64,000 bases of DNA from Pasteurella oralis (lineage in GTDB: Bacteria; Pseudomonadota; Gammaproteobacteria; Enterobacterales; Pasteurellaceae), in contig NZ_NXGB01000002.1 of the NCBI RefSeq assembly GCF_002850605.1, forward strand, positions 62,001 to 126,000, given 5' to 3'. Both the position numbers and the translations under genes were made by a program. Position 1 is the stretch's first letter. Each line of letters begins with the position of its first letter. The notes below the pieces were generated by a model. It was not told the DNA's origin. It saw only the letters and a program-made list of their open reading frames with translations, and made no database searches. Shown piece by piece: positions 19,994 to 50,568 of this stretch.

Positions 19994-20824
19994 TTATAAA
20001 ACAGACCGCACTTTTAAGATGGCAGATACTTGTTCTCCTTGTTTTAACCACTGGCTAATACGTCCTGTTTCCACACAAACCATCGTTTGATAGCCAGTTT
20101 CACTCATACCACTTGTAGCTTTATGCCATGGATTCCACAACACAACATCGGAGGCATTATGGTGTGCAATTGCAATTGTACGTTGTAATGCATTATCTAC
20201 AATTGTAGTTTGTGCATTTTGAATATGATATGTGCAATCCACATTTTGGCTAATTTTACGTGGTGAAGGAACGCTCTCTTGTTGTTGAGTGAGATTACTT
20301 ATCGCTGTTGTTGGTAAACCTTGTACTTCAATTTGGTGAATATCACCAATGTTGAAATAGCTATGTAGTGCCACTTGTGCAACTTCTTGACCGTAATGTG
20401 TGAAAATCACTTCACATTGTTGGCTGAAAATCATCGTCATTTTAGCTTCAACAAGATGATCTTCACTAAATAAACCGAATTCTAACTGCACTTGTTGGGT
20501 AGCAATTTGATAATCAGTGAGCTGCCATAAGCGAATACGGGCAGTACCGTGAGAAGGTGATTTTACGGGTCCAAACCAAGGATAGCAAATAGGAATACCG
20601 CCACGAATAGCATTACCTTGTTGAAAAGGTTCAATTTCACTTAGCCAGATGACATCTTGTTCAACGCCAGCAGGTTTCCAGCTAAATAGATGGGCACCTT
20701 GTAATGAAATATGTGCTGAACCGACTTGATGCTGTAAGCTAATCACTGGAATTTGATTATATTGGTACAGGCTAAGTTCAGGTGTAATTTGTTTGATTAA
20801 TTGGGGTTGGACTGGATTTTGCAT
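19994..20824 (-). CDS. Glucose-6-phosphate 1-epimerase (YeaD-type mutarotase)
   Basis: An aldose-1-epimerase-fold enzyme of 276 residues from the ATG at 20824 (MQNPVQPQ), which has an AGAGGC ribosome-binding site. The frame opens further upstream at 20899, but that extension would run into the yoaA promoter. Conserved blocks are VIWLSEIEPF, NAIRGGIPICYPWFGP and HGTARIRLWQL, the last with substrate-binding Arg and catalytic His. It interconverts anomers of hexose 6-phosphates in the cytoplasm. A clear paralogue lies at 49750-50568. The gene is divergent from yoaA. Confidence 0.9.
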   Translation of the reverse strand: MQNPVQPQLIKQITPELSLYQYNQIPVISLQHQVGSAHISLQGAHLFSWKPAGVEQDVIWLSEIEPFQQGNAIRGGIPICYPWFGPVKSPSHGTARIRLWQLTDYQIATQQVQLEFGLFSEDHLVEAKMTMIFSQQCEVIFTHYGQEVAQVALHSYFNIGDIHQIEVQGLPTTAISNLTQQQESVPSPRKISQNVDCTYHIQNAQTTIVDNALQRTIAIAHHNASDVVLWNPWHKATSGMSETGYQTMVCVETGRISQWLKQGEQVSAILKVRSVL

Positions 20825-39302: not shown

Positions 39303-40193
39303 ATGATGGAAAAAATAAAGAATATTATTAAGGAAAAACTAGATCTGCCTATCTCATCGATATTACAAGTGTCTTTTTTAGGTGGGATGACCAATAAAAA
39401 TTATATTGTCAGTACGCAACAAGACAGCTATGTTGTAAGAATTCCGGGGGCGATGACTGAAAGTTTAATTATCCGAGATAATGAGGCTGTAAATAGTATT
39501 GCAATGTCTAAAGCTGGGTTTAATGTTGAAACTTGTTTTTTTGATGCAAAGTCAGGCATTAAAATTACTCAATATTTGTCAGAAAGTTGTACACTAGATC
39601 ATCAAAATGTTAAAACATTTTCTAATTTGAAACTTATTGCAGAGAAATTATATTTACTTCATCAATCCCCAATTAAATTGGCTAATCGATTTAATGTTTT
39701 TGAGGAATTTGATAAATATATCAATTTACTTAAAAATAAAGATGCTTTTTATCAATATAGTGAAAACATGCCAGAATTATTGGCTTTTTTCCAAATGATT
39801 AAAACTGATTTTTCTTACAATCAATCTTTTCTTGCTGTTTGCCATAATGATTTAGTTCCAGAAAATATCCTTTTAAAAGGAGAACAAGTTTATTTTATTG
39901 ATTGGGAGTATTCTGGTATGAATGATCCTATGTTTGATCTTGCTGCGTTCTTTTTAGAAGCGAAATTGAATAAAGCAGAACAAGATTTCTTTTTACAATG
40001 TTATTTCAAGAAACAAGAAGATATTGAAGAAGCATTAATGAAGATTGCTTTTTATCAATTTACTCAGGATGTTTTGTGGTTTGTTTGGACACTCGTGAAA
40101 GAAGAAAATGGAGAGTTCTTTGAAGGTTACGGTAAGAATCGTATTGAAAGAGCAATTGCTTTTATGAAAACTTGGAAAGCCCAAGAGGTGTAA
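39303..40193 (+). CDS. licA: Choline kinase LicA
   Basis: A 296-residue choline/ethanolamine kinase-like protein. The ATP-binding N-lobe begins FLGGMTNKNYIV; the catalytic loop is CHNDLVPENILL and the metal loop IDWEYSGMNDPMFDLA. It phosphorylates imported choline as the first cytoplasmic step of decorating lipooligosaccharide with phosphocholine. In H. influenzae, licA begins with long tetranucleotide repeats that switch it on and off; no such repeat is present at this start. The gene opens with two ATG codons. It is the first of five closely packed genes (licA-B-C-D-D2). Confidence 0.92.
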   Translation: MMEKIKNIIKEKLDLPISSILQVSFLGGMTNKNYIVSTQQDSYVVRIPGAMTESLIIRDNEAVNSIAMSKAGFNVETCFFDAKSGIKITQYLSESCTLDHQNVKTFSNLKLIAEKLYLLHQSPIKLANRFNVFEEFDKYINLLKNKDAFYQYSENMPELLAFFQMIKTDFSYNQSFLAVCHNDLVPENILLKGEQVYFIDWEYSGMNDPMFDLAAFFLEAKLNKAEQDFFLQCYFKKQEDIEEALMKIAFYQFTQDVLWFVWTLVKEENGEFFEGYGKNRIERAIAFMKTWKAQEV

Positions 40194-40196
40194 GTA

Positions 40197-41111
40197 ATGA
40201 CGACGAAATATTCTGGTTATCTTTGGGGCATTTTATCTGGGTTATTATGGGGGATTGCAGGTATTTTATATGAGATGTTAAATACAACTTATCCCTTTAC
40301 GACTTCTCTGACAATCATATTATCTTTGTTATTTGTTATAGAATTCTCAGCATTTATTTTTTGTTTTGTTTCACATTATAAATTGAATTTGTTTAAGGAA
40401 TGTGATTTCAAGAATAAACGTGTATTTTTAGGTGTCGTCGCTGGCGTTATTGGTGGGCCTATTGGTATGTTATGCTATTTACAAGCTATTCAATATATTG
40501 GTGTTGGGTATGCTGCACCGATATCTTCGGTCTATCCTGTTTTTGGTGCAATTCTGGCATTTTTATTTTTAAAAGACACTATGACTAAATTAGGCATACT
40601 AGGATTATGTTTGGCTATAGGTTGCACCATTTTACTAGGATTAGATGTCAATACGTCTCAGTTTTCACTTTTAGGTATTTTTTTGGCAATCGTTTGCGCT
40701 TTAAGTTGGGGAGGCGAAATTGTTATCTCATCTTATGTCATGCAATCTATTAACTCTTCTATTGCTTATTTTTTTAGACAACTTGGCTCCAGTATTGGCT
40801 ATTTTATTTTGCTTTGTTCTTTTGATGTGAAGTTTTTTGGTCTTATTGAATTTTTTAAAGATAAACAATTCTCACTTATTATCTTTTTAATTATTGTTTC
40901 TTCAATGACATCTTATTTCTTGTATTATAAGGCAATTTATTTAATTAAACCAATAAGAGCTATGATGTTGAATATTACTTATGGTTTTTGGATTATCCTT
41001 ATTGGTTTTATATTAAATAATACGAGTATTGATCTGATGACAGTTTTTCTTGTTGTCGGTGTTGTGTTAGGTGCAGGACTAACATTAAAAGATAAAAGGG
41101 AAAATGTATGA
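40197..41111 (+). CDS. licB: Choline permease LicB (EamA/DMT family)
   Basis: A 304-residue membrane protein with about ten transmembrane helices in two EamA repeats (the first with GGPIGMLCYLQAIQYIGVGYAAPISSVYPVFGAI). H. influenzae LicB is a high-affinity choline importer, and the gene order leaves little doubt here. It starts three bases after licA and overlaps licC by four. Confidence 0.92.
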   Translation: MTTKYSGYLWGILSGLLWGIAGILYEMLNTTYPFTTSLTIILSLLFVIEFSAFIFCFVSHYKLNLFKECDFKNKRVFLGVVAGVIGGPIGMLCYLQAIQYIGVGYAAPISSVYPVFGAILAFLFLKDTMTKLGILGLCLAIGCTILLGLDVNTSQFSLLGIFLAIVCALSWGGEIVISSYVMQSINSSIAYFFRQLGSSIGYFILLCSFDVKFFGLIEFFKDKQFSLIIFLIIVSSMTSYFLYYKAIYLIKPIRAMMLNITYGFWIILIGFILNNTSIDLMTVFLVVGVVLGAGLTLKDKRENV

Positions 41112-41803
41112 ATGCAATTATATTAGCGGCAGGTTTAGGGAGCCGTTTTAAAGATATTACAAAAAATACGCACAAGGCATTATTGCCTATTGATGGAATC
41201 CCAAATATAGAAAGAACGATTAAATATTTAAAACAAGCTAATATAAATGATATTTATATTGTGACAGGTCATTTATCTGACCAGTTTGACTATTTACATG
41301 ATAAATATGGCTGTTGTCTTTTATATAATGAAAAATATAAAGATTATAATAGTATTTATTCTTTTTTTACTGCACAGAATGCATTTTCTGATAGCTATGT
41401 TATTGATTCTGATGTAGTCTTATTTAGAAATATATTTTTGGATAAGCCTGAAATAAGTTGCTACTTTGTTGTAAAAAGACCTGAAAGTCAAGATAAAGAA
41501 TGGGTTCCTATTGTAAATGAGGAAGGAAAAATTATCAGAATAGATGTGACTAATGAGCCGTTGCCGAGCTTATTAGGCATCTCATATTGGGCAAAAAGTG
41601 ACAGCGATAAAATTAAAATAAAATTAAAGGAATATCTTCATCCTAATATTTTAAGCCAAAGTGTATTATATTGGGATAATATTCCAATGGAAATAATATC
41701 TGAATTAGATGTGAATACAGTTGAATTGTCAATATCCGATGGCTATGAAATGGATAACTTAATCCAATATAATTTCATTTTAAATAATTTAGTTGGTAAA
41801 TAA
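41108..41803 (+). CDS. licC: CTP:phosphocholine cytidylyltransferase LicC
   Basis: A 231-residue nucleotidyltransferase with the signature ILAAGLGSRFKDITKNTHKALLP and a metal-binding DSDVV at about residue 100. It makes CDP-choline, the donor for LicD. The ATG overlaps the licB stop (ATGA), and the stop is followed immediately by licD. Confidence 0.93.
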   Translation: MNAIILAAGLGSRFKDITKNTHKALLPIDGIPNIERTIKYLKQANINDIYIVTGHLSDQFDYLHDKYGCCLLYNEKYKDYNSIYSFFTAQNAFSDSYVIDSDVVLFRNIFLDKPEISCYFVVKRPESQDKEWVPIVNEEGKIIRIDVTNEPLPSLLGISYWAKSDSDKIKIKLKEYLHPNILSQSVLYWDNIPMEIISELDVNTVELSISDGYEMDNLIQYNFILNNLVGK

Positions 41804-41804
41804 T

Positions 41805-42611
41805 ATGAGAACAATAACACTTCGTGAACACCAATTGATCACTTTAGATATTTTAAAATACTTTAATAAAATTTGTATTAAACATAATATTAAATATTCA
41901 TTAGGTGGTGGCACATTAATTGGTGCAGTACGTCATAAAGGCTTTATTCCATGGGATGACGATATTGATGTATATATGTGTCGAGATGAATATGAAAAAT
42001 TTATTCAAGCTTGGGAAAGTTTAAATCATGAAAGATATAGATTGTCATTGGCTGAGAGAATTGATGGTGTATCTGTTGGTGAAACTACAAAAATTTATGA
42101 TTTGAAGACACATTTAGTGGAAACAAATGATGATGTTTATGGTATTTTTATTGATATTTTTGTTTGGGACGGTGTACCTGATGATCCTAAAGCGATTTTT
42201 TCAATAATGAAGAAACATAAAAGATTGAAAGCGCATTATTTTTCTATCGAAAAAAGAGAGAAAAAATATCAAAACTCAAAAATATTCAGCCATATTATTA
42301 ACGTTCTTAAATCTTATTTTTTTAATAAGATGATGGAGCATATCTATTCATTTCAAAAAAGATATCCTATTAAACAAGCAAATACTATAGCAATGGTATT
42401 ATTTGATTATAATAATTGGAAAAAAGCCTATATGCCTAAAGAATATTTCAATGATGTCATATATTTAGATTTTGAAGGCGATAAATATCCTGTTATGAAA
42501 GGCTATCATCAACATTTAACTGTGTACTATGGTGATTATATGCAGCTTCCACCAATAGAACAAAGAATACCGCACCATATCAAAGAAGTATATTTATTAG
42601 AAGAAATATAG
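41805..42611 (+). CDS. licD: Phosphocholine transferase LicD, copy 1
   Basis: A 268-residue LicD-family transferase from the ATG at 41805 (MRTITLREHQLI); a TTG four codons upstream, inside licC, is less likely. The N-terminal GGGTLIGAVRHKGFIPWDDDIDVYM supplies the nucleotidyltransferase-fold glycine loop and metal-binding acidic cluster. It transfers phosphocholine from CDP-choline to a lipooligosaccharide sugar; LicD alleles differ in acceptor. It is followed six bases later by a close paralogue. Confidence 0.92.
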   Translation: MRTITLREHQLITLDILKYFNKICIKHNIKYSLGGGTLIGAVRHKGFIPWDDDIDVYMCRDEYEKFIQAWESLNHERYRLSLAERIDGVSVGETTKIYDLKTHLVETNDDVYGIFIDIFVWDGVPDDPKAIFSIMKKHKRLKAHYFSIEKREKKYQNSKIFSHIINVLKSYFFNKMMEHIYSFQKRYPIKQANTIAMVLFDYNNWKKAYMPKEYFNDVIYLDFEGDKYPVMKGYHQHLTVYYGDYMQLPPIEQRIPHHIKEVYLLEEI

Positions 42612-42617
42612 GTTTTT

Positions 42618-43418
42618 ATGCAAAAGATTACTTTACGTGAACATCAATTAATCGCGTTAGACATTTTAAAATACTTTAATCAAATTTGTTTATCACATGG
42701 TATCAAGTACTCTTTGGGAGGAGGGACGCTAATTGGTGCTGTACGTCATCAAGGGTTTATTCCATGGGATGATGACATTGATGTGTATATGTGTCGAGAT
42801 GAATATGAGAGATTTGTTCAAGCATGGGAACAGCAACAACATGCTAAATATGATTTGTCTCTTGCGGAGCGTATTGACGGAATGATGCCTGGAGAAATGA
42901 CAAAAATTTTTGATAAAGAAACTCGTTTGATTGATACGAAAGGCAGAACTACGGGCATTTTTATTGATATTTTTATTTGGGATGGTGTCCCAAATGATTC
43001 ATATATTCTTTATCACGCAATGAAAAGACATCGCCGTCTTAAACTCAGGTTTTCTTCTTGCCGTAAAAGATGGTATCGCGCGAGGGAGAATACTTTTATG
43101 AGAGCTATTTTTTCTAAATTGTCTCATTATTTTTTTAATAAGATGATGTCGCACTTAAAGCAATTTCAAGAAAAATACCCTATTAATAAATCAGATTATA
43201 TAGGATTGTTTTTATCGGATTATGGTGGTTGGCAAAAATCATATATGCTAAAAGAATATTTTTCGGATGTAGTCTATTTGGATTTTGAGGGAGAAAAACT
43301 TCCTGTTATGAATGGGTATCATGAGCATTTAACGCTGTATTACGGTGATTATATGCAACTTCCTCCATTACATGAGCAGAAACCACACCATACTTTTGAA
43401 GCTTATCGTTTGAATTAG
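42618..43418 (+). CDS. licD: Phosphocholine transferase LicD, copy 2
   Basis: A 266-residue second LicD. By eye it matches copy 1 at most positions over residues 1-145 (MQKITLREHQLIALDILKYF...) and again at the C-terminus (HLTLYYGDYMQLPP), while residues about 150-185 differ strongly and are richer in Arg (RRLKLRFSSCRKRWYRAREN). That pattern fits duplication followed by change in an acceptor-recognition region. All catalytic acidic residues are kept. It ends the operon; a terminator follows. Confidence 0.9.
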   Translation: MQKITLREHQLIALDILKYFNQICLSHGIKYSLGGGTLIGAVRHQGFIPWDDDIDVYMCRDEYERFVQAWEQQQHAKYDLSLAERIDGMMPGEMTKIFDKETRLIDTKGRTTGIFIDIFIWDGVPNDSYILYHAMKRHRRLKLRFSSCRKRWYRARENTFMRAIFSKLSHYFFNKMMSHLKQFQEKYPINKSDYIGLFLSDYGGWQKSYMLKEYFSDVVYLDFEGEKLPVMNGYHEHLTLYYGDYMQLPPLHEQKPHHTFEAYRLN

Positions 43419-43650: not shown

Positions 43651-44451
43651 TTATTTACCCAAATGGACGATTAGCATATAAGCAGCGATGACTAGCAAAA
43701 TGAAGCCAAGTAGTTTTCTCGCTAAATCAGGCTTGAGAATACCGCGAATTTTCATTGATAAAAAGCTAGTTACAAAAGAACTTAATACAACGAGCGTAAC
43801 GACTGAAAAATTAACATAACCTATTTGCCAGCCGTAATCGAGATGAAATGGTGGGGTTTTAGATAAATAACCATAAAGGCTGCCTAAGCCACCAATAACC
43901 ATCATGTAATTAGTGTAAGGCGCGATTTGATAAGGTTTTACGCTACGAAGTTGTCCAATTAATGGTGCCATGATTGAACCGCCACCAATACCTGTCATAC
44001 CTGCAACGCTACCGCCAAATAAACATAAAATTGCGCCTTTTAAGCTATCATTGCTGGTTACAGTCGTATTATCAACAACAGCTTTATGAAAAATAGTACG
44101 TAATGCGAGTAGGCTGAGAGTGATCACAAAAACACCAATAATAATATTATCATGTAGATGAAAGCTGGCTTCAAAACCCAGTTGTACACCGATAATCATA
44201 CCTAAAGACCATAGCAACATTGATTTAATATTGATTTGAATTTTTTGTTTATAAAAATAAGTTAAATTAATTAATGCAGAGCCAATAACAATAGTGAGTG
44301 ATGTAGCAGCAACCATTTGTAATGGAAAGTCTGGAAAGAGAGTGTAGAGAATTGGTACCATTAGCACGCCACCACCAATACCAAAGATAGCAGACATAAG
44401 GTTTGTGAGCATACCACAAAATATCAAGATGATGATCAGTTGTAAATCCAT
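43651..44451 (-). CDS. TSUP-family anion exporter (TauE/SafE)
   Basis: A 266-residue membrane protein with about eight transmembrane helices in two related halves, each with the family motif: FGIGGGVLMVPIL near the N-terminus and MTGIGGGSIMAPLIG in the middle. TSUP proteins export or import sulfite, sulfoacetate and similar sulfur or organic anions. It is divergent from the symporter-sulfatase genes, across a 225-base control region, so it may dispose of the sulfur anion released by that pathway; this is inference from position. Confidence 0.88.
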   Translation of the reverse strand: MDLQLIIILIFCGMLTNLMSAIFGIGGGVLMVPILYTLFPDFPLQMVAATSLTIVIGSALINLTYFYKQKIQINIKSMLLWSLGMIIGVQLGFEASFHLHDNIIIGVFVITLSLLALRTIFHKAVVDNTTVTSNDSLKGAILCLFGGSVAGMTGIGGGSIMAPLIGQLRSVKPYQIAPYTNYMMVIGGLGSLYGYLSKTPPFHLDYGWQIGYVNFSVVTLVVLSSFVTSFLSMKIRGILKPDLARKLLGFILLVIAAYMLIVHLGK

Positions 44452-44552
44452 AACAAAAAACCCCGTAATTTTTGTGTATTATGTCCTAAGATAGATTCAA
44501 TACATTATGATCATGCTCATATTTTTAAAAAATTCTTATTTCTTATTTAATC

Positions 44553-44568
44553 TGTGATCCATCTCACG
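44553..44568 (+). promoter_or_regulatory. CRP site in the TSUP/symporter control region
   Basis: TGTGATCCATCTCACG differs from the CRP consensus TGTGA-N6-TCACA by one base. It lies about 110 bases before the symporter ATG and about 100 before the divergent TSUP ATG, so cAMP-CRP could activate either side. Confidence 0.8.
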
Positions 44569-44575
44569 GCAACTA

Positions 44576-44591
44576 TATGATGATCATCATA
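44576..44591. promoter_or_regulatory. 16-bp perfect palindrome, FNR-like
   Basis: TATGATGATCATCATA is a perfect palindrome. Its core ATGAT-GATC-ATCAT differs from the FNR consensus TTGAT-N4-ATCAA only at the outer base of each half. It may bind FNR or the Crp/Fnr-family regulator encoded at 47981-48577. It sits eight bases from the CRP site. Confidence 0.6.
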
Positions 44592-44676
44592 ATTTTTTGT
44601 CTCCCTGTGTATTATGCTAAATATGTATCTGATTTAGATGCTTTTCGTTTAGATTAAATATATAGGGGATAATAAT

Positions 44677-46356
44677 ATGTTCATCACAATAATCAGCTTT
44701 CTTATAGTCACAGGTATTGTGGCGTTTATTTCATGGAAAAAAACAAAAGATGATGATTTGACTACATCTAAGGGATATTTCTTAGCTGGACGAGGATTAA
44801 GTGGTCTAGTGATTGGCTGTTCAATGGTATTGACATCACTTTCTACAGAGCAATTAATTGGTGTTAATGCCGTATCTTATAAAGGTAACTTTTCAATTAT
44901 TGCTTGGACAGTACAGTCTGTGATTCCATTGTGTTTCTTAGCACTTTATTTGTTACCGAAATATATTAAAAATGGTTACACCACAATCCCAGAATTTTTT
45001 GAGAATCGTTTTGACCGCCAAACGCGTTTAATCATGTCAACGTTATTCTTAGTATTCTATCTATTCATTGTTATTCCTACCGCGCTTTATACTGGTGCGA
45101 TTGCATTTAATAAAATTTTTAATTTAGAAACTGTATTTGGTATTACCTATGGTCAATCAATTGTTTATACCGTGATTGCAATTGGTATTGTTGGGGCGAT
45201 TTATGCGATCTTTGGTGGATTAAAAGCGGTTGCAGTATCTGATACGCTAAATGCAGTTATTTTAGTGATTGGTGCGTTATTAGTTCCTATTTTTGCCTTA
45301 GCACATTTAGGTGATGGTAGTATTTCTGAAGGCTTTAAAACAATTACAACGACACATGTCGAGAAATTTAATGCAATTGGTAGTGCAACAGACGCCGTAC
45401 CATGGCCAGCTATGTTTACCGGTATTTTAATTGTCAATTTCTTCTACTGGACGACTAACCAAGCAATTGTACAACGTGCATTAGGCGCAAGAGATTTAAA
45501 ATCAGGTCAAAAAGGTATCTTAATTGCTGCATTATTCCTATTAACTTTGCCTGTTATCCTGAATTTACCGGGATTATTAAGTTTCCATATTCTTGGTGAT
45601 GGCCTAAATCCAATTGATACATCTTATCCAGCATTAGTCAATAAAGTATTACCAACGTTCTTACAAGGGTTCTTCATCGCGGCATTATTTGGTGCAATTT
45701 TAAGTACATTTAACTCTTTCCTAAACTCTGCTGCAACAATTTACTGTAAAGATTTACTGCCATCAATCAGCAGTAAAACTTGGTCAGATAAAGAACTGAT
45801 TTTACATGCGAAAAAAGTATCTGCCGTAATGGCGATTTTAACAATGATCATTGGTCCATTACTTATGTTTGGTACTGATGGTATCTTCTTGTTAACTAAG
45901 CGTTTTGCTGGTTTTGTCAATATTCCTATCGTTGCATTATTTGCTGTCGGCTTATTTAATAAAACAGTTTCAGGTTTAGCTGCACGTATTGCTTTACTTT
46001 TACACGTTGTTTTATATTTCTCAATCGTCTGGGTATTCAAAGTTAAAGTGAACTTTGTTTATGTCATGGCCGCATTATTTGTGTTTGATGTTGTTGTGAT
46101 GCTTGTGTTAGGTAAATTCTTCAGACGTGAACCATACGAAGAAAGCAAAGAAAATAAAGAAGGTGTGGATTTAACTAATTGGGAATATGCCCCTGTTACG
46201 GTTGCCTCTTTAGTTCTTGGTTTAATCACATTATATACTTTATTATCACCATTAGGCTTAGCTTCACCAGCAGGTCAACCATTGTTGGTATTAGGCATTT
46301 ATGCGGTGTTACAATTAATCATCTTATTCGTGATGCGTAAAAAAGAGGCTAAATAA
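44677..46356 (+). CDS. Sodium:solute symporter (SSS family, YidK-like)
   Basis: A 559-residue inner-membrane symporter with about 13-14 helices. Conserved SSS features include [31 protein letters not shown] near the N-terminus and [14 protein letters not shown] in the middle. The sequence resembles E. coli YidK, whose neighbour yidJ is a sulfatase. The stop overlaps the sulfatase ATG by one base (TAATG), so transporter and sulfatase are coupled. A sulfated or phosphorylated sugar is a reasonable substrate, but this is inferred from the neighbour. Confidence 0.9.
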
Positions 46357-47801
46357 TGAATATTATTTACATTTTATTAGATCAAGTGAGAAAGGACATG
46401 CTTGGTGCTTATGGGCACCAAGTTGTTAAAACACCGAATATTGATCGTTTAGCACAAGATGGCATTCGCTTTAATAATGCATTTACGCCAGCTTCTGTTT
46501 GTGGACCTGCACGTACGTCATTATTTACTGGCTTGATGCCATCTTCACATGGCATTATTAAAAATGGTGAAAAAGGCGGTACTGGCGAAATTAGCCAGCA
46601 AGCCCCAAATATCGCTAAATTAGCAGGCTATAATACTTACGTAGTAGGGAAATGGCATGTAGGAACAAAATCAGTGCCAGAAGATTATGGTATTAAAGGT
46701 CATAACTTTGATGGTTACGGTTATCCAGGCAGCGGTGTTTATAAAAATCTTGTATTTAATCAACCACCAACACATTCTAATCGTTATAAAGCGTGGTTAG
46801 AAGAAAAAGGCTTTGAGATCCCAGAAGTGAGCCACGCTTATTTTGGTGATAATCCTCATCTACGTGTACAAGAGCTTTGTGGTTTTTTATCTGGTTCAAA
46901 AGAGCAAACGATTCCTTATTTCATTATTGATGAAGCCAAGAAGTATATTCAGGAATCGTTAGATGAAAAGAAACCATTCTTTACTTGGATTAACTTTTGG
47001 GGACCACATACACCTTGTATTGTCCCCGAACCTTATTATTCGATGTACAGTAAAGATGACGTAGTGTTAGATGAAAGCTTTTTTAAACCACTTGAAGGAA
47101 AACCAGGTCACTTCCGCACAATTTCTAAAATGTGGGGAATGTGGGAAGCAAGTGAAGAGCATTGGAAAGAAGTAATTACGAAATTCTGGGGGTACATTAC
47201 CTTGATTGATGATGCCATTGGGGAATTATTTACTTTCTTAGAGCAACATGATTTATATGAGAGTACTTTCCTCGTTGCAACGGCAGACCATGGTGATGCA
47301 ATGGGCGCTCATCGTATGATAGAAAAAGGGGAGTTCATGTTTGATACGACCTATAATATCCCGATGATTGTCAAAGATCCAAAATCTGATCGAGTGAATC
47401 AAGTTGATGACAATTTAGTCTATCTGCATGATTTAACCTCAACAGTATATGATATTGCACAGCAAGATATTCCAAGTGAATTTGAAGGGGAAACCTTATT
47501 ACCTATTACACGTGCTCATCAACAAAATGATCGTAAAGGTATTCTGGCACAGTTAGCAGGGCATTTTGTTTATTTTGAGCAACGTATGTGGCGTCGCAAA
47601 GATTATAAATTAGTATTTAACGCAACGGATATTTGTGAGTTGTATGATGTACGCAATGATCCTGAGGAAATGCATAATTTATTCTATGATGAACGTTATC
47701 ATAACGTCAAAAAAGAAATGCTCGAAGAAATGCGAGTCGAAATGAAGCGATTAGGCGACCCATTAGAAAACTGGGTGTATCGTATCATTGATGAAATCTA
47801 A
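46356..47801 (+). CDS. Cytoplasmic Cys-type sulfatase (or related phosphonate/phosphodiester hydrolase)
   Basis: A 481-residue alkaline-phosphatase-superfamily hydrolase. The N-terminal metal Asp is in LLDQVRKDML (Asp9), and the formylglycine site is Cys49 in CGPAR (C-x-P-x-R), followed by TSLFTG. Other metal and substrate residues are in GKWH and TADHGDAMGAH. The cysteine-type site needs oxidation to formylglycine, and the maturase two genes downstream can do this. There is no signal peptide, so it acts in the cytoplasm on an imported substrate. The CGPAR-x-SL-TG block also occurs in phosphonate monoester hydrolases/phosphodiesterases, so the hydrolysed group could be phosphate-linked instead. 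It is coupled to the symporter. Confidence 0.88.
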   Translation: MNIIYILLDQVRKDMLGAYGHQVVKTPNIDRLAQDGIRFNNAFTPASVCGPARTSLFTGLMPSSHGIIKNGEKGGTGEISQQAPNIAKLAGYNTYVVGKWHVGTKSVPEDYGIKGHNFDGYGYPGSGVYKNLVFNQPPTHSNRYKAWLEEKGFEIPEVSHAYFGDNPHLRVQELCGFLSGSKEQTIPYFIIDEAKKYIQESLDEKKPFFTWINFWGPHTPCIVPEPYYSMYSKDDVVLDESFFKPLEGKPGHFRTISKMWGMWEASEEHWKEVITKFWGYITLIDDAIGELFTFLEQHDLYESTFLVATADHGDAMGAHRMIEKGEFMFDTTYNIPMIVKDPKSDRVNQVDDNLVYLHDLTSTVYDIAQQDIPSEFEGETLLPITRAHQQNDRKGILAQLAGHFVYFEQRMWRRKDYKLVFNATDICELYDVRNDPEEMHNLFYDERYHNVKKEMLEEMRVEMKRLGDPLENWVYRIIDEI

Positions 47802-47980
47802 GATAAGAAAAGCAAAATTAGCTCGCCTTTCTACTTTGCACTCGCTTAACTAAGCTGTTAAGGTGAATATTAAATCTCTTTTCTGTATTTATTATTCACC
47901 TTATCATTTTAAAAACACCGCATCATAAAATAATAAAAAAGTTACCGCACTTTTAATCAATAAATATAAGAAGGAAAAGT

Positions 47981-48577
47981 ATGGATAATTCCCAAATTTT
48001 GCCCACTGCGTTACAGCATTGCCAATTGACTTATTTGCATCAGTTAGCTAAAGGTATGACGGTTTATCAACAAGGCGAGATCGCACAAGAGTTTTATTTT
48101 GTTAAACAAGGACTTGTTGGTTTATATCATACCCTTGATAATGGTAAAGAAAGTTTAGTGCGATTATATCGGCAAGGTGATTATTTTGGTTTTCGTACGC
48201 TATTTGGTTTAGGCGATAGCCGCTATCATTGTAATGCTAAAGTCTTAATTGAAGCTGAGATTATTCGTATTAAGCCAGAAAATATTGATCAATTCTTTTT
48301 ACATAATGCCGAGCTGAGTAAATTACTTTTACAAACCTTAGCGAATGAATTACGAGATGCAGAACAACGTTTGGCAAAAAGTGCTTATTTACGTACTTTA
48401 GATCGTGTTATTGATAGCCTGTGTTTCTTAACGACTAATTTCCCTTATTACAATTGGACATATCGTGAAATTGCAGAATATGCTGGTTGTGAAACAGAAA
48501 CCGCAATTCGTATTGCTAAAGCATTAAAACAAAATGGCTTGTTCACTGATTTTTTGCCAAATCATAAAGGAAAATAA
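47981..48577 (+). CDS. Crp/Fnr-family transcriptional regulator
   Basis: A 198-residue protein with an N-terminal cyclic-nucleotide-binding-type barrel (about 15-120: GMTVYQQGEIAQEFYFVKQGLVGLYH, RLYRQGDYFGFRTLFG), a dimer helix and a short C-terminal winged helix with recognition region YREIAEYAGCETETAIRIAKALKQNGLF. There are no N-terminal cysteines of an FNR-type cluster, so it is not an oxygen sensor of that kind. The HTH end is short for the family. It lies between the sulfatase and the maturase with site AAGGAA and is the obvious local regulator. An uptake signal lies upstream (47944-47952). Confidence 0.88.
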   Translation: MDNSQILPTALQHCQLTYLHQLAKGMTVYQQGEIAQEFYFVKQGLVGLYHTLDNGKESLVRLYRQGDYFGFRTLFGLGDSRYHCNAKVLIEAEIIRIKPENIDQFFLHNAELSKLLLQTLANELRDAEQRLAKSAYLRTLDRVIDSLCFLTTNFPYYNWTYREIAEYAGCETETAIRIAKALKQNGLFTDFLPNHKGK

Positions 48578-48597
48578 GGAGTATAAGGACAAAACAG

Positions 48598-49734
48598 ATG
48601 TCAGTCTTTTCGCGGAAAGCAAATTTTCATTTAATGGCAAAGCCAAGTAGCTTTCATTGTAATATTCAATGTGAGTATTGTTTCTACCTTGACAAAGAAC
48701 GGACCTTTGGTAAACAAACTGCGTTCATGTCGCAGCAAACACTAAAAAATTACATCAAAAATTATATTGAGTCTCACGCTAGTAATCGAGTGGAGTTTGC
48801 ATGGCAAGGAGGGGAACCTACTTTACTTGGCTTAAATTTTTTTAAAAGTGCGGTACATTTTCAACAAGAATTTGCGAATGGAAAAATGATTACTAATGCA
48901 TTCCAAACGAATGGTATTGCATTAAATCGGCAATGGGTTGAGTTTTTCAAACAACACCAATTTCTGATTGGATTATCTATAGATGGACTAAGTGCTGTAC
49001 ATAATCGTTACCGCATTACCAGTAACGGACAACCGACTTTTGAACGTGTCGTGCAGGCGTTAGCGCTATTGAAACAATATCAAGTGGATTTCAATACATT
49101 AACAGTGATTAACGATCAAAATTGGCACAAAGGAAAAGAAACTTATCTTGCTTTGAAGGCGATGGGTTCAAGGTTTATGCAATTTATCCCAATTGTGGAA
49201 CAACATGCTCAACAAGTACAACCCTTTTCTGTGCCACCAGAAGGTTATGGACATTTTTTAGTAGATGTCTTTAGAGAATGGAAAAAAGAAGATGTGGGAC
49301 AAGTTTTTGTGTTGGAGTTTGATAATTTGCTTGGGCAATGGTTAGGTTATCCATCAAGTAGCTGTATACATCAACCGACTTGTGGAAAATCATTAGTCGT
49401 AGAAGCTAATGGGGATGTTTATGCTTGTGATCACTTTGTTTACCCTGAATACAAGCTTGGCAATTTAAATCACAGCGCTTTAGCTGAATTAGTACAACAA
49501 CCACAGCAACAGCAATTTGGGTTAGCAAAACAAAGTCAATTGACTCAAATTTGTCAACAATGTGAGTTTAAAGCTTTATGTCAAGGTGGTTGTCCTAAAC
49601 ATCGTATTGTGTCGTTAGTAGGTGAATCTTTTAGGCACAATTATTTATGTGCTTCTTACCGCTATTTTTTCCACCAAACAGCTGAAGATATGCAACAAAT
49701 GCGTCATCAAATTCGGTTTGCAAGGGGACAATAA
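48598..49734 (+). CDS. Anaerobic sulfatase-maturating enzyme (radical SAM)
   Basis: A 378-residue radical SAM protein with a SPASM domain. The SAM-cluster cysteines are C21, C25 and C28 in CNIQCEYC, followed by FAWQGGEPTLLG. Auxiliary-cluster cysteines include those in SSCIHQPTCGKSLVVEANGDVYACDHFVYPEYKLGN (about 260-300) and CQQCEFKALCQGGCPKHR. Such enzymes oxidise the active-site Cys or Ser of sulfatases to formylglycine without oxygen. With a Cys-type sulfatase two genes upstream, the pairing is clear. An uptake signal is inside the gene (48846-48854). It starts 21 bases after the regulator. Confidence 0.93.
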   Translation: MSVFSRKANFHLMAKPSSFHCNIQCEYCFYLDKERTFGKQTAFMSQQTLKNYIKNYIESHASNRVEFAWQGGEPTLLGLNFFKSAVHFQQEFANGKMITNAFQTNGIALNRQWVEFFKQHQFLIGLSIDGLSAVHNRYRITSNGQPTFERVVQALALLKQYQVDFNTLTVINDQNWHKGKETYLALKAMGSRFMQFIPIVEQHAQQVQPFSVPPEGYGHFLVDVFREWKKEDVGQVFVLEFDNLLGQWLGYPSSSCIHQPTCGKSLVVEANGDVYACDHFVYPEYKLGNLNHSALAELVQQPQQQQFGLAKQSQLTQICQQCEFKALCQGGCPKHRIVSLVGESFRHNYLCASYRYFFHQTAEDMQQMRHQIRFARGQ

Positions 49735-49749
49735 TTGGAGGAGTAACAA

Positions 49750-50568
49750 ATGATCAATATAACCAAAATGAAACAATTTACCCCAGAGTTGACTTTATAT
49801 CGTTACAACGAAATTCCCGTATTAGAATTAAGCCATCGTGTGGGAGAGGCTAAAATTGCTTTACAAGGTGCACAATTATTAAGCTGGCAACCACAAAACG
49901 AAAGTCAAGATATTTTCTGGTTAAGTGATATTGAACCTTTTATCTTAGAAAACCCGATTCGCGGTGGTGTGCCGATTTGTTATCCTTGGTTTGGTGCCGC
50001 GAAGCAGCCTATTCATGGTACTGCACGTTTACGTTTATGGCAGTTAAGCCATCATGACATCACATCAAAGCAAGTTAAGTTAGAGTTTGCATTATTTGAT
50101 ACGCAGAATATACTTGAAGCTAAAGTGACCATGTCCTTTACTGATAAATGTGAAATTACGTTAATGCATTGTGCACAACATCCTGCTCAAGCTGCACTGC
50201 ATAGCTATTTTAAATTGAGCAATATCGCGCAAGTGACAATTCAAAATTTGCCTCGAAATGGTTTTAATGCGATTACGCAGCAACAAGAAGATTTACCTTC
50301 TACCCGTCGGATTACTCAACATGTTGATTGTATTTATAGTGTAGAAGAGAATGTAAATTACATTGTTGATGAGCAATTTGAACGTCAAATTAAAATTGTA
50401 CATCAACATGCCAGCGAAATCGTGTTATGGAATCCATGGCAAAATCCAATGGGTGCAATGCAAGCTGAAGATTATCAACAAATGATTTGTTTAGAAAGTG
50501 CGCGAATTTATCACCCCTTGAGTTTTGGTGAAAGTCTTAGTGTCTTGTTATCCAGCAAAAATCGCTGA
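49750..50568 (+). CDS. Second hexose-6-phosphate mutarotase (YeaD-type)
   Basis: A 272-residue aldose-1-epimerase-fold protein, a paralogue of the gene at 19994-20824: SDIEPF, NPIRGGVPICYPWFG and HGTARLRLWQLS are shared. A strong GGAGG site precedes the ATG, 16 bases after the maturase stop, which places it in the sulfatase gene set. It may equilibrate anomers of the sugar phosphate released or formed in that pathway; the family is best known for glucose 6-phosphate. No terminator separates it clearly from the infC region. Confidence 0.85.
   Translation: MINITKMKQFTPELTLYRYNEIPVLELSHRVGEAKIALQGAQLLSWQPQNESQDIFWLSDIEPFILENPIRGGVPICYPWFGAAKQPIHGTARLRLWQLSHHDITSKQVKLEFALFDTQNILEAKVTMSFTDKCEITLMHCAQHPAQAALHSYFKLSNIAQVTIQNLPRNGFNAITQQQEDLPSTRRITQHVDCIYSVEENVNYIVDEQFERQIKIVHQHASEIVLWNPWQNPMGAMQAEDYQQMICLESARIYHPLSFGESLSVLLSSKNR

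Follow-up and report, generated by a model that had tools for sequence, protein, structure and literature searches.

Several described systems resemble parts of a block of six genes at positions 43651–50568 of a 64,000-nucleotide stretch of the Pasteurella oralis genome (contig NZ_NXGB01000002.1; the whole stretch is referred to below as the window), whose products are a TSUP protein, a YidK-type symporter, a cytoplasmic sulfatase, a Crp-family regulator, a sulfatase maturase and a sugar-phosphate mutarotase. First, in Escherichia coli K-12 yidK-yidJ, as in the window, a YidK-type symporter gene lies directly upstream of a gene of the sulfatase family, with an overlap of four bases in E. coli and of one base in the window. 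YidK and YidJ are 40% and 28% identical to the window proteins and are annotated as putative, the neighbouring regulator is YidL, and no TSUP, maturase or mutarotase gene is annotated within the 16 kb of the E. coli locus that was examined. Secondly, the closest system with reported phenotypes is an island of Streptococcus pneumoniae that shares with the window a sugar transporter, a sulfatase, a sulfatase-modifying factor and a TauE match, and that encodes a ROK protein, as do cassettes related to that of the window. The island has a phosphotransferase system (PTS) where the window has a symporter, its ROK protein was judged more likely to be a repressor, and the accessible part of the report mentions no Crp-like regulator; mutants of the island show attenuation in mice, and on a general substrate sulfatase activity was not seen (PMC3283741).

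Thirdly, the accessible part of a comparison of Pasteurella multocida genomes reports that 14 members of subsp. septica lack yidK, yeaD_1, chuR_1 and a gene with a sulfatase domain, all of which are found in about 87% of 130 others (PMC10986470). Judging from the gene names these are very probably the block described here, and that part of the source presents them as a list of differing genes, with no operon, exporter, regulator or pathway given. Lastly, the S1_11 GlcNAc-6-sulfatases of Bacteroides have the same fold as the window sulfatase (BT4656, Z 36.9, root mean square deviation (rmsd) 2.4 over 411 residues; BT3177, Z 36.2, rmsd 2.7 over 417) at 24 to 26% sequence identity. From what is accessible of a study of these enzymes, the heparin-set S1_11 enzyme is periplasmic, whereas the window sulfatase is cytoplasmic, and a triad of His and Asp/Arg reads O3 and O4 of the substrate (PMC10154612). 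The FDKR sequence of BT3177, taken here as the Asp/Arg pair, aligns with IEKG and a gap in the window sulfatase, and loop 317–328 of the window sulfatase model has a predicted local distance difference test score (pLDDT) below 50.

In the open literature that was searched, with subscription papers mostly outside it, no such pathway or regulator is described for the Pasteurellaceae. What appears to be new, on sequence evidence, is a family-wide regulon with a predicted regulator and motif and with swappable modules. The chemistry itself belongs to a known type, and the activities are predicted.

Gene content and conservation of the block

The block would be a catabolic unit whose substrate, a small sulfate ester, is most likely a sulfated hexose, and we consider it probable that it directs the import of a small sulfate ester, its desulfation and the export of the product anion under the control of CRP and of the encoded Crp-like regulator. 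A single import-cleavage-export system had been proposed in a first-pass annotation of this DNA; the co-occurrence of the genes, the modular swapping around them and a shared predicted operator motif (TATGA-N6-TCATA) give it good support, although the genes are split in several relatives. The six open reading frames (ORFs) and their families given there were borne out by the ORF list and by profile searches. The divergent TSUP (TauE/SafE-type) anion exporter gene (43651–44451, − strand) encodes a protein that is predicted to expel released sulfate and scores 120 bits against TauE PF01925 (cut-off 32.6). The sodium:solute symporter (44677–46356, + strand), a predicted sulfate-ester importer, scores 169 bits against SSF and 699 bits against the YidK-type model NF007790 (cut-off 401), and its stop codon shares one base with the start of the Cys-type (formylglycine) sulfatase gene (46356–47801, + strand), so that the ORF coordinates uphold the one-base overlap noted in the first pass. 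Downstream, all on the + strand, are the genes for the Crp-family regulator (47981–48577), for an anaerobic sulfatase maturase of the radical SAM, SPASM type (48598–49734; TIGR03942, 533 bits against a cut-off of 349; 4k37, 210 bits; the CxxxCxxC motif is present as CNIQCEYC) and for an HI1317/YeaD-type hexose-6-phosphate mutarotase (49750–50568), followed by infC.

The sulfatase belongs to the S1 (type I) family (Sulfatase PF00884, 154 bits, cut-off 25), and its residues 49–53, CGPAR, have the C/S-x-P-x-R maturation motif of formylglycine sulfatases, with Cys49, Pro51 and Arg53 invariant in 19 aligned sequences. Its structural model has a mean pLDDT of 83 and a predicted TM-score (pTM) of 0.90, and because the first strand of the fold is formed by residues 2–8 and the open frame is longer than the protein by one codon only, there is no space for a signal peptide; alignment, model and open frame thus agree with the earlier description of a CGPAR enzyme without one. 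It is the sole PF00884 protein of its genome with a maturation motif, three others lacking C/S-x-P/A-S/A-R, and the maturase model finds one other match in this genome, at 22 bits against the cut-off of 349. The best match in a fold search is the carbohydrate sulfatase PsS1_NC (Z 40.0, rmsd 2.5, 436 residues). A substrate could not be read from the structure and that approach was rejected: many S1 sulfatases match nearly equally well (Z 34 to 40 among the 50 matches listed), and with Z values this close and with pLDDT below 50 in loops 120–126, 249–259 and 317–328 the model gave no substrate. The structural neighbours also include phosphonate monoester hydrolases (Z 38), which use the same modified residue; this would suit an enzyme acting mainly on phosphonate or phosphate esters within the same superfamily. 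We regard this as very improbable, given the strict tie of the gene to a maturase and a TSUP protein that also serve other sulfatase-family genes, and given that the best fold match is a carbohydrate sulfatase.

The distribution of the genes was compared in 140 genomes of the family (G numbers below; L numbers denote loci), of which 70 have a sulfatase match at E 1e-20, or 69 after removal of G026 (31% identity); full-length matches in other genomes are 81 to 94% identical. The co-occurrence sets were compiled by hand from match tables, with symporter matches below 70% dropped. The symporter is present in 65 of the 69 sulfatase genomes and never without the sulfatase (71 of 140 genomes have neither), the Crp-like regulator in 68 of 69 and in six others (65 with neither), the TSUP gene in 67 of 69 and in six others (65 with neither), and a maturase of either type in 66 of 69 and in nine others (62 with neither). 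Fisher values for these associations, with ancestry ignored, range from 6e-26 to 1e-35. Every genome with an intact sulfatase (64/64, excluding the partial or broken matches of G024, G062, G063, G064 and G066) has a maturase, and in the three sulfatase genomes without one (G062–G064) the sulfatase genes are partial; the Crp-like gene persists in all three of these, and the TSUP gene in G063 and G064.

At the locus level, 55 named loci were compared, 11 from other families and 44 counted as Pasteurellaceae, some of them ended by the contig. One of the 44 (L047; CABDVE010000001.1; G128) is titled Pseudomonas stutzeri NCTC11607, but with a sulfatase 87% and an infC 96% identical to those of the window its genome appears from sequence to group within the Pasteurellaceae, and the title looks wrong. 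Twenty of the 44 named stretches have the TSUP, symporter, sulfatase, Crp-like and maturase genes in the order of the window, one of them with an insert of about 8 kb, a recurrence that argues against a chance neighbourhood, and the symporter adjoins the sulfatase in 42. Departures from this order are seen in Haemophilus haemolyticus, where symporter and sulfatase adjoin the mutarotase and infC (L078, L088), and in genomes of the same genus, in which TSUP, maturase and Crp-like genes form a separate cluster (L099; L117, with a maturase fragment). The first-pass annotation had held that scattered genes in relatives would speak against a joint function; the genes are indeed split in several relatives, yet when split they continue to occur in the same genomes and the motif is retained at most of them, and over the 140 genomes the survey finds the five genes mostly present or absent together, even when far apart. 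We note that in stretches from Haemophilus influenzae and H. aegyptius (L091, L074) a partial sulfatase, with a partial symporter also in L074, lies beside a mutarotase and infC.

In a sample of 394 genomes of the order, 18 genomes had a sulfatase match at E 1e-60, all of them Pasteurellaceae. Relatives at 52 to 80% identity occur in Vibrio, Cetobacterium, Leptotrichiaceae, Anaerococcus and Lachnoclostridium, and one at 30% in a Clostridia assembly; because the sequences from Leptotrichiaceae, Anaerococcus and Lachnoclostridium fall among those of the Pasteurellaceae in the tree without resolution, no direction of transfer is called. In one Cetobacterium locus (L082) a fructose-type PTS gene and a gene for a GntR-family regulator (6–824 and 1045–1764) precede the sulfatase in place of the symporter; in L081 and L076, too, the sulfatase has a GntR-like gene ahead of it. 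The Vibrio relatives at 52 to 57% (L083, L084, L087, L089) lie beside an opposite-strand maturase and further sulfatase-like genes, and L083 also has an ABC transporter set, recognised by eye.

The divergent promoter region and the Crp-like regulator

The 225 bp between the divergent TSUP and symporter genes (44452–44676) contain one CRP-type site and two TATGA-N6-TCATA palindromes, none of them assigned to a strand. The CRP-type site, TGTGATCCATCTCACG (44553–44568), is recognised by its likeness to TGTGA-N6-TCACA, and of 40 Pasteurellaceae loci 39 have a sequence with at most one mismatch to that pattern upstream of their symporter gene. To its right is TATGATGATCATCATA (44576–44591), the predicted Crp-like operator on the symporter side, set apart by its spacing to the CRP-type site, which is 23 bp in 35 of 41 loci and 32 bp, about one helical turn more, in five. 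The predicted operator on the TSUP side, TATGATCATGCTCATA (44506–44521), is identified by the motif and by the correspondence of two-site loci with divergent TSUP genes: among 42 named symporter loci, 22 have two sites, all with a divergent TSUP gene, and 19 have one site, none with a divergent TSUP gene. A possible but weak −10 element of the symporter, TATTAT (44610–44615, + strand), has one mismatch to TATAAT; TATTAT or TATATT recurs among the loci at varying distances from the site (16 in 15 of 41), and no promoter class is claimed from it.

The motif was scanned in 65 Pasteurellaceae stretches including the window (1.11 Mb), with sites counted as upstream when within 300 bp of cassette genes. 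Upstream of cassette genes there are 99 TATGA-N6-TCATA sites against 0.2 expected. Of the five sites elsewhere, four stand ahead of sulfatase modules of other kinds: the next gene is TctC-like in three cases and in the fourth encodes a symporter accompanied by a sulfatase. Upstream sites are present in 62 of the 65 stretches, the exceptions being L061, whose contig starts at the sulfatase, the H. influenzae remnant L091, and L118. Nine control patterns (among them other half-sites, other spacings and the exact FNR box) have no occurrence upstream of cassette genes in the same stretches, where the exact CRP pattern has 35. No TATGA-N6-TCATA site is present in 11 stretches from other families, in which about 0.5 would be expected by chance. 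A single site in Bisgaardia (L060, 2139–2154) has no recognised sulfatase-related gene beside it.

The encoded regulator is of the Crp family in both fold and sequence, as the first pass had it, yet it falls well under the curated cut-offs for CRP (NF008732, 62 bits against 266) and for FNR (NF008365, 25 bits against 228). A fold search with its model returns CRP-family chains at Z 14 to 17; those at about 16 to 17 match over 124–129 residues of the effector domain with an rmsd of 2.1–2.2. In the recognition helix E-T-E-T-A-I-R takes the place of the S-R-E-T-V-G-R of CRP, and six of the seven residues are invariant in 29 of 29 copies. With R180, E181 and R185 taken as the recognition residues of CRP, all 29 copies have Thr at the place of R180 and keep E181 and R185, a departure from the CRP recognition set. 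The shift from TGTGA to TATGA at the base thought to be contacted by Arg180 fits the replacement of Arg180 by Thr, and a pairing of the encoded protein with TATGA-N6-TCATA would fit this change. The cAMP contacts of CRP, which we take to be E72, S83, T127 and S128, are likewise not kept; in the alignment, read by eye, their places are occupied by Phe, Tyr, Ala and Glu, and the Tyr in place of S83 is common to all 29 copies. Tyr82, His83, Cys84 and Cys170 are invariant in the Crp-like copies, and possible effectors are a sulfur anion, a sugar phosphate, or a haem or metal held by the His-Cys pair.

A number of observations weigh against a dedicated unit of this kind. The species counts are not independent of ancestry; G041, G138 and G139 have a maturase but no sulfatase, TSUP or Crp-like gene, and G026 has maturase, TSUP and Crp-like genes without a sulfatase orthologue. 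The siteless locus L118 is a maturase locus, and the named symporter locus L065 has no exact site. The closest solved enzymes to the sulfatase are 20 to 28% identical and differ in their substrates, 28 of the 44 named stretches lack the mutarotase, and the genome of the window has no ROK match at E 1e-50. Furthermore, in motif scans of 16 genomes (in the 15 besides that of the window, 40 stretches of non-cassette sites were examined) the pattern has matches within genes as well, and at least seven of the 16 have it ahead of an arcA-like gene (L153, L155, L160, L167, L170, L172, L182), which we take to be that of the response regulator ArcA. In the genome of the window TTATGA-N6-TCATA has six sites, two in the cassette, three inside ORFs and the sixth at C22:73464.

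The sites before arcA-like genes imply that FNR or another Crp-family protein could share TATGA sites. An alternative is therefore that FNR, or CRP itself, acts at the TATGA-N6-TCATA sites, with the targets of the Crp-like protein elsewhere; other anaerobic-looking genes are also preceded by the pattern, and the TGA half-site is common to the whole regulator family. This we consider rather unlikely, since the exact FNR box and the other half-sites are absent upstream of cassette genes, the palindromes adjoin the CRP-type site and differ from it, and the stretches from other families, in which no Crp-like orthologue was matched, have none of these sites, with only about 0.5 expected.

Substrate and proposed pathway

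In the pathway that we propose, controlled by the Crp-like protein, which would recognise TATGA-N6-TCATA at the TSUP and symporter promoters, and by CRP, which would couple the block to carbon supply, the YidK-type sodium symporter would import the intact sulfated compound, and the radical SAM maturase would convert Cys49 of the sulfatase into formylglycine in the cytoplasm. The sulfatase would then free sulfate in the cytoplasm, a kinase (in some genera the ROK kinase encoded with the cassette, here one encoded elsewhere) would presumably phosphorylate the freed sugar, the mutarotase would balance the anomers of the sugar 6-phosphate, and the TSUP protein would expel the sulfate, with the direction of transport assumed. 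TSUP proteins vary in direction, and sulfatases can serve sulfur nutrition, so a role in sulfur supply, with TSUP as an importer and the released sulfate assimilated, might be envisaged; this seems quite improbable, as the CRP-type site points to carbon use and no importer is needed for sulfate that is freed in the cytoplasm.

The first-pass annotation had proposed a sulfated sugar, and this derives support from the linkage of the mutarotase and from the ROK kinase in related cassettes, although the mutarotase is not obligate. The mutarotase (Aldose_epim, 145 bits) is a relative of HI1317 (1jov, 358 bits) and is present in 16 of the 44 named stretches, nine with infC and seven without (including L053, where the match is partial). 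Of the 140 family genomes 130 have a mutarotase match, and with this general occurrence, and in 16 of 44 stretches, it was rejected as a core member and kept as an accessory one: it adjoins the cassette, as the earlier description of the set implied, including at seven loci without infC, but it is not required. An aldose-epimerase family gene also follows the maturase in Anaerococcus (PF01263, 42 bits against a cut-off of 27). A second mutarotase of the same genome, at window positions 20012–20797 on the − strand (G000:C12:82012–82797), is 51% identical to the cassette copy. The ROK kinase is nearest to the glucokinase subfamily (224 bits, under the cut-off of 260) and lies inside the cassette in Spirabiliibacterium and Gallibacterium; in a third genus (Avibacterium, by locus match) it is unlinked, and the palindrome precedes it in the one genome examined. 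It is present in 13 of the 140 genomes, and 12 of these have the sulfatase orthologue.

The linkages of the mutarotase and the ROK kinase point to a hexose that becomes a 6-phosphate, and we think a sugar ester fairly likely. The best fit would be GlcNAc-6-sulfate or a hexose 6-sulfate, while the choice of GlcNAc-6-sulfate in particular is doubtful. The same unit might instead act on an ester that is not a sugar, for instance choline sulfate, an aryl sulfate or tyrosine sulfate, with the mutarotase and ROK kinase as neighbours for other reasons: the symporter superfamily carries many solutes, a choline-sulfatase model scores 166 bits on the sulfatase, though far under its cut-off of 433, and the mutarotase, which 28 of the 44 named stretches lack, has a linkage of its own to infC. 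We regard this as unlikely in view of the seven loci at which the mutarotase is present without infC, the epimerase-family gene in Anaerococcus, the ROK kinase, which two genera have inside the cassette and a third has downstream of the motif, and the CRP-type site in the promoter. Contacts of the symporter were not used to choose among substrates. The sugar contacts of vSGLT, presumably E88, K294 and Q428, align with Thr78, Leu288 and Lys408 (with Arg409 adjacent), which could suit an anion; the comparison was set aside because at the first two of these positions Glu and Lys are retained both in YidK and in the second symporter.

Exchangeable modules and implications for the Pasteurellaceae

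Six genomes have the TSUP and Crp-like genes without this sulfatase, and five were examined at the locus level. In G036 and G038 (L103, L104) the TSUP and Crp-like genes are accompanied by a maturase of a second type and by another symporter-sulfatase pair; G088 and G093 (L105, L106) have TSUP, a maturase, a TctC-TctB-TctA-like transporter with another sulfatase, and the Crp-like gene. In G106, from the genus of the window, TSUP (91% identity) and Crp-like (94%) genes lie at the corresponding position ahead of infC, where the symporter, sulfatase, maturase and mutarotase genes are missing, and a TctCBA-sulfatase-maturase set with the TATGA-N6-TCATA motif lies elsewhere (L111, L112; TctA, TctC and sulfatase families confirmed). 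These swaps suggest a common sulfate-handling trio of TSUP, maturase and Crp-like proteins combined with exchangeable substrate modules, and the simplest reading is that the trio serves several interchangeable transporter-sulfatase modules. We put at about even the prospect of a wider sulfate-ester regulon of the Pasteurellaceae, in which a Crp-family switch with an altered helix and a remodelled effector pocket (the invariant Tyr-His-Cys) would govern a common maturase and exporter and at least four kinds of transporter-sulfatase module for varied host compounds. Just upstream of the block, window positions 39303–43418 encode a kinase-like protein, an EamA-type transporter, a nucleotidyltransferase and two LicD-like proteins, which we take to resemble a phosphocholine decoration cluster; much of this is also found in G106 (L111).

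The predicted operator motif offers a means of finding regulon members throughout the family, and the modules that replace one another beside a constant set amount to a natural experiment for the assignment of substrates. The partial genes in the Haemophilus influenzae group, compared with intact ones in H. haemolyticus and H. parainfluenzae, point to a metabolic difference between close relatives. Together these lead to a testable proposal for the use of sulfated host compounds, by means of an intracellular sulfatase, among the respiratory and oral Pasteurellaceae, commensal and pathogenic alike.

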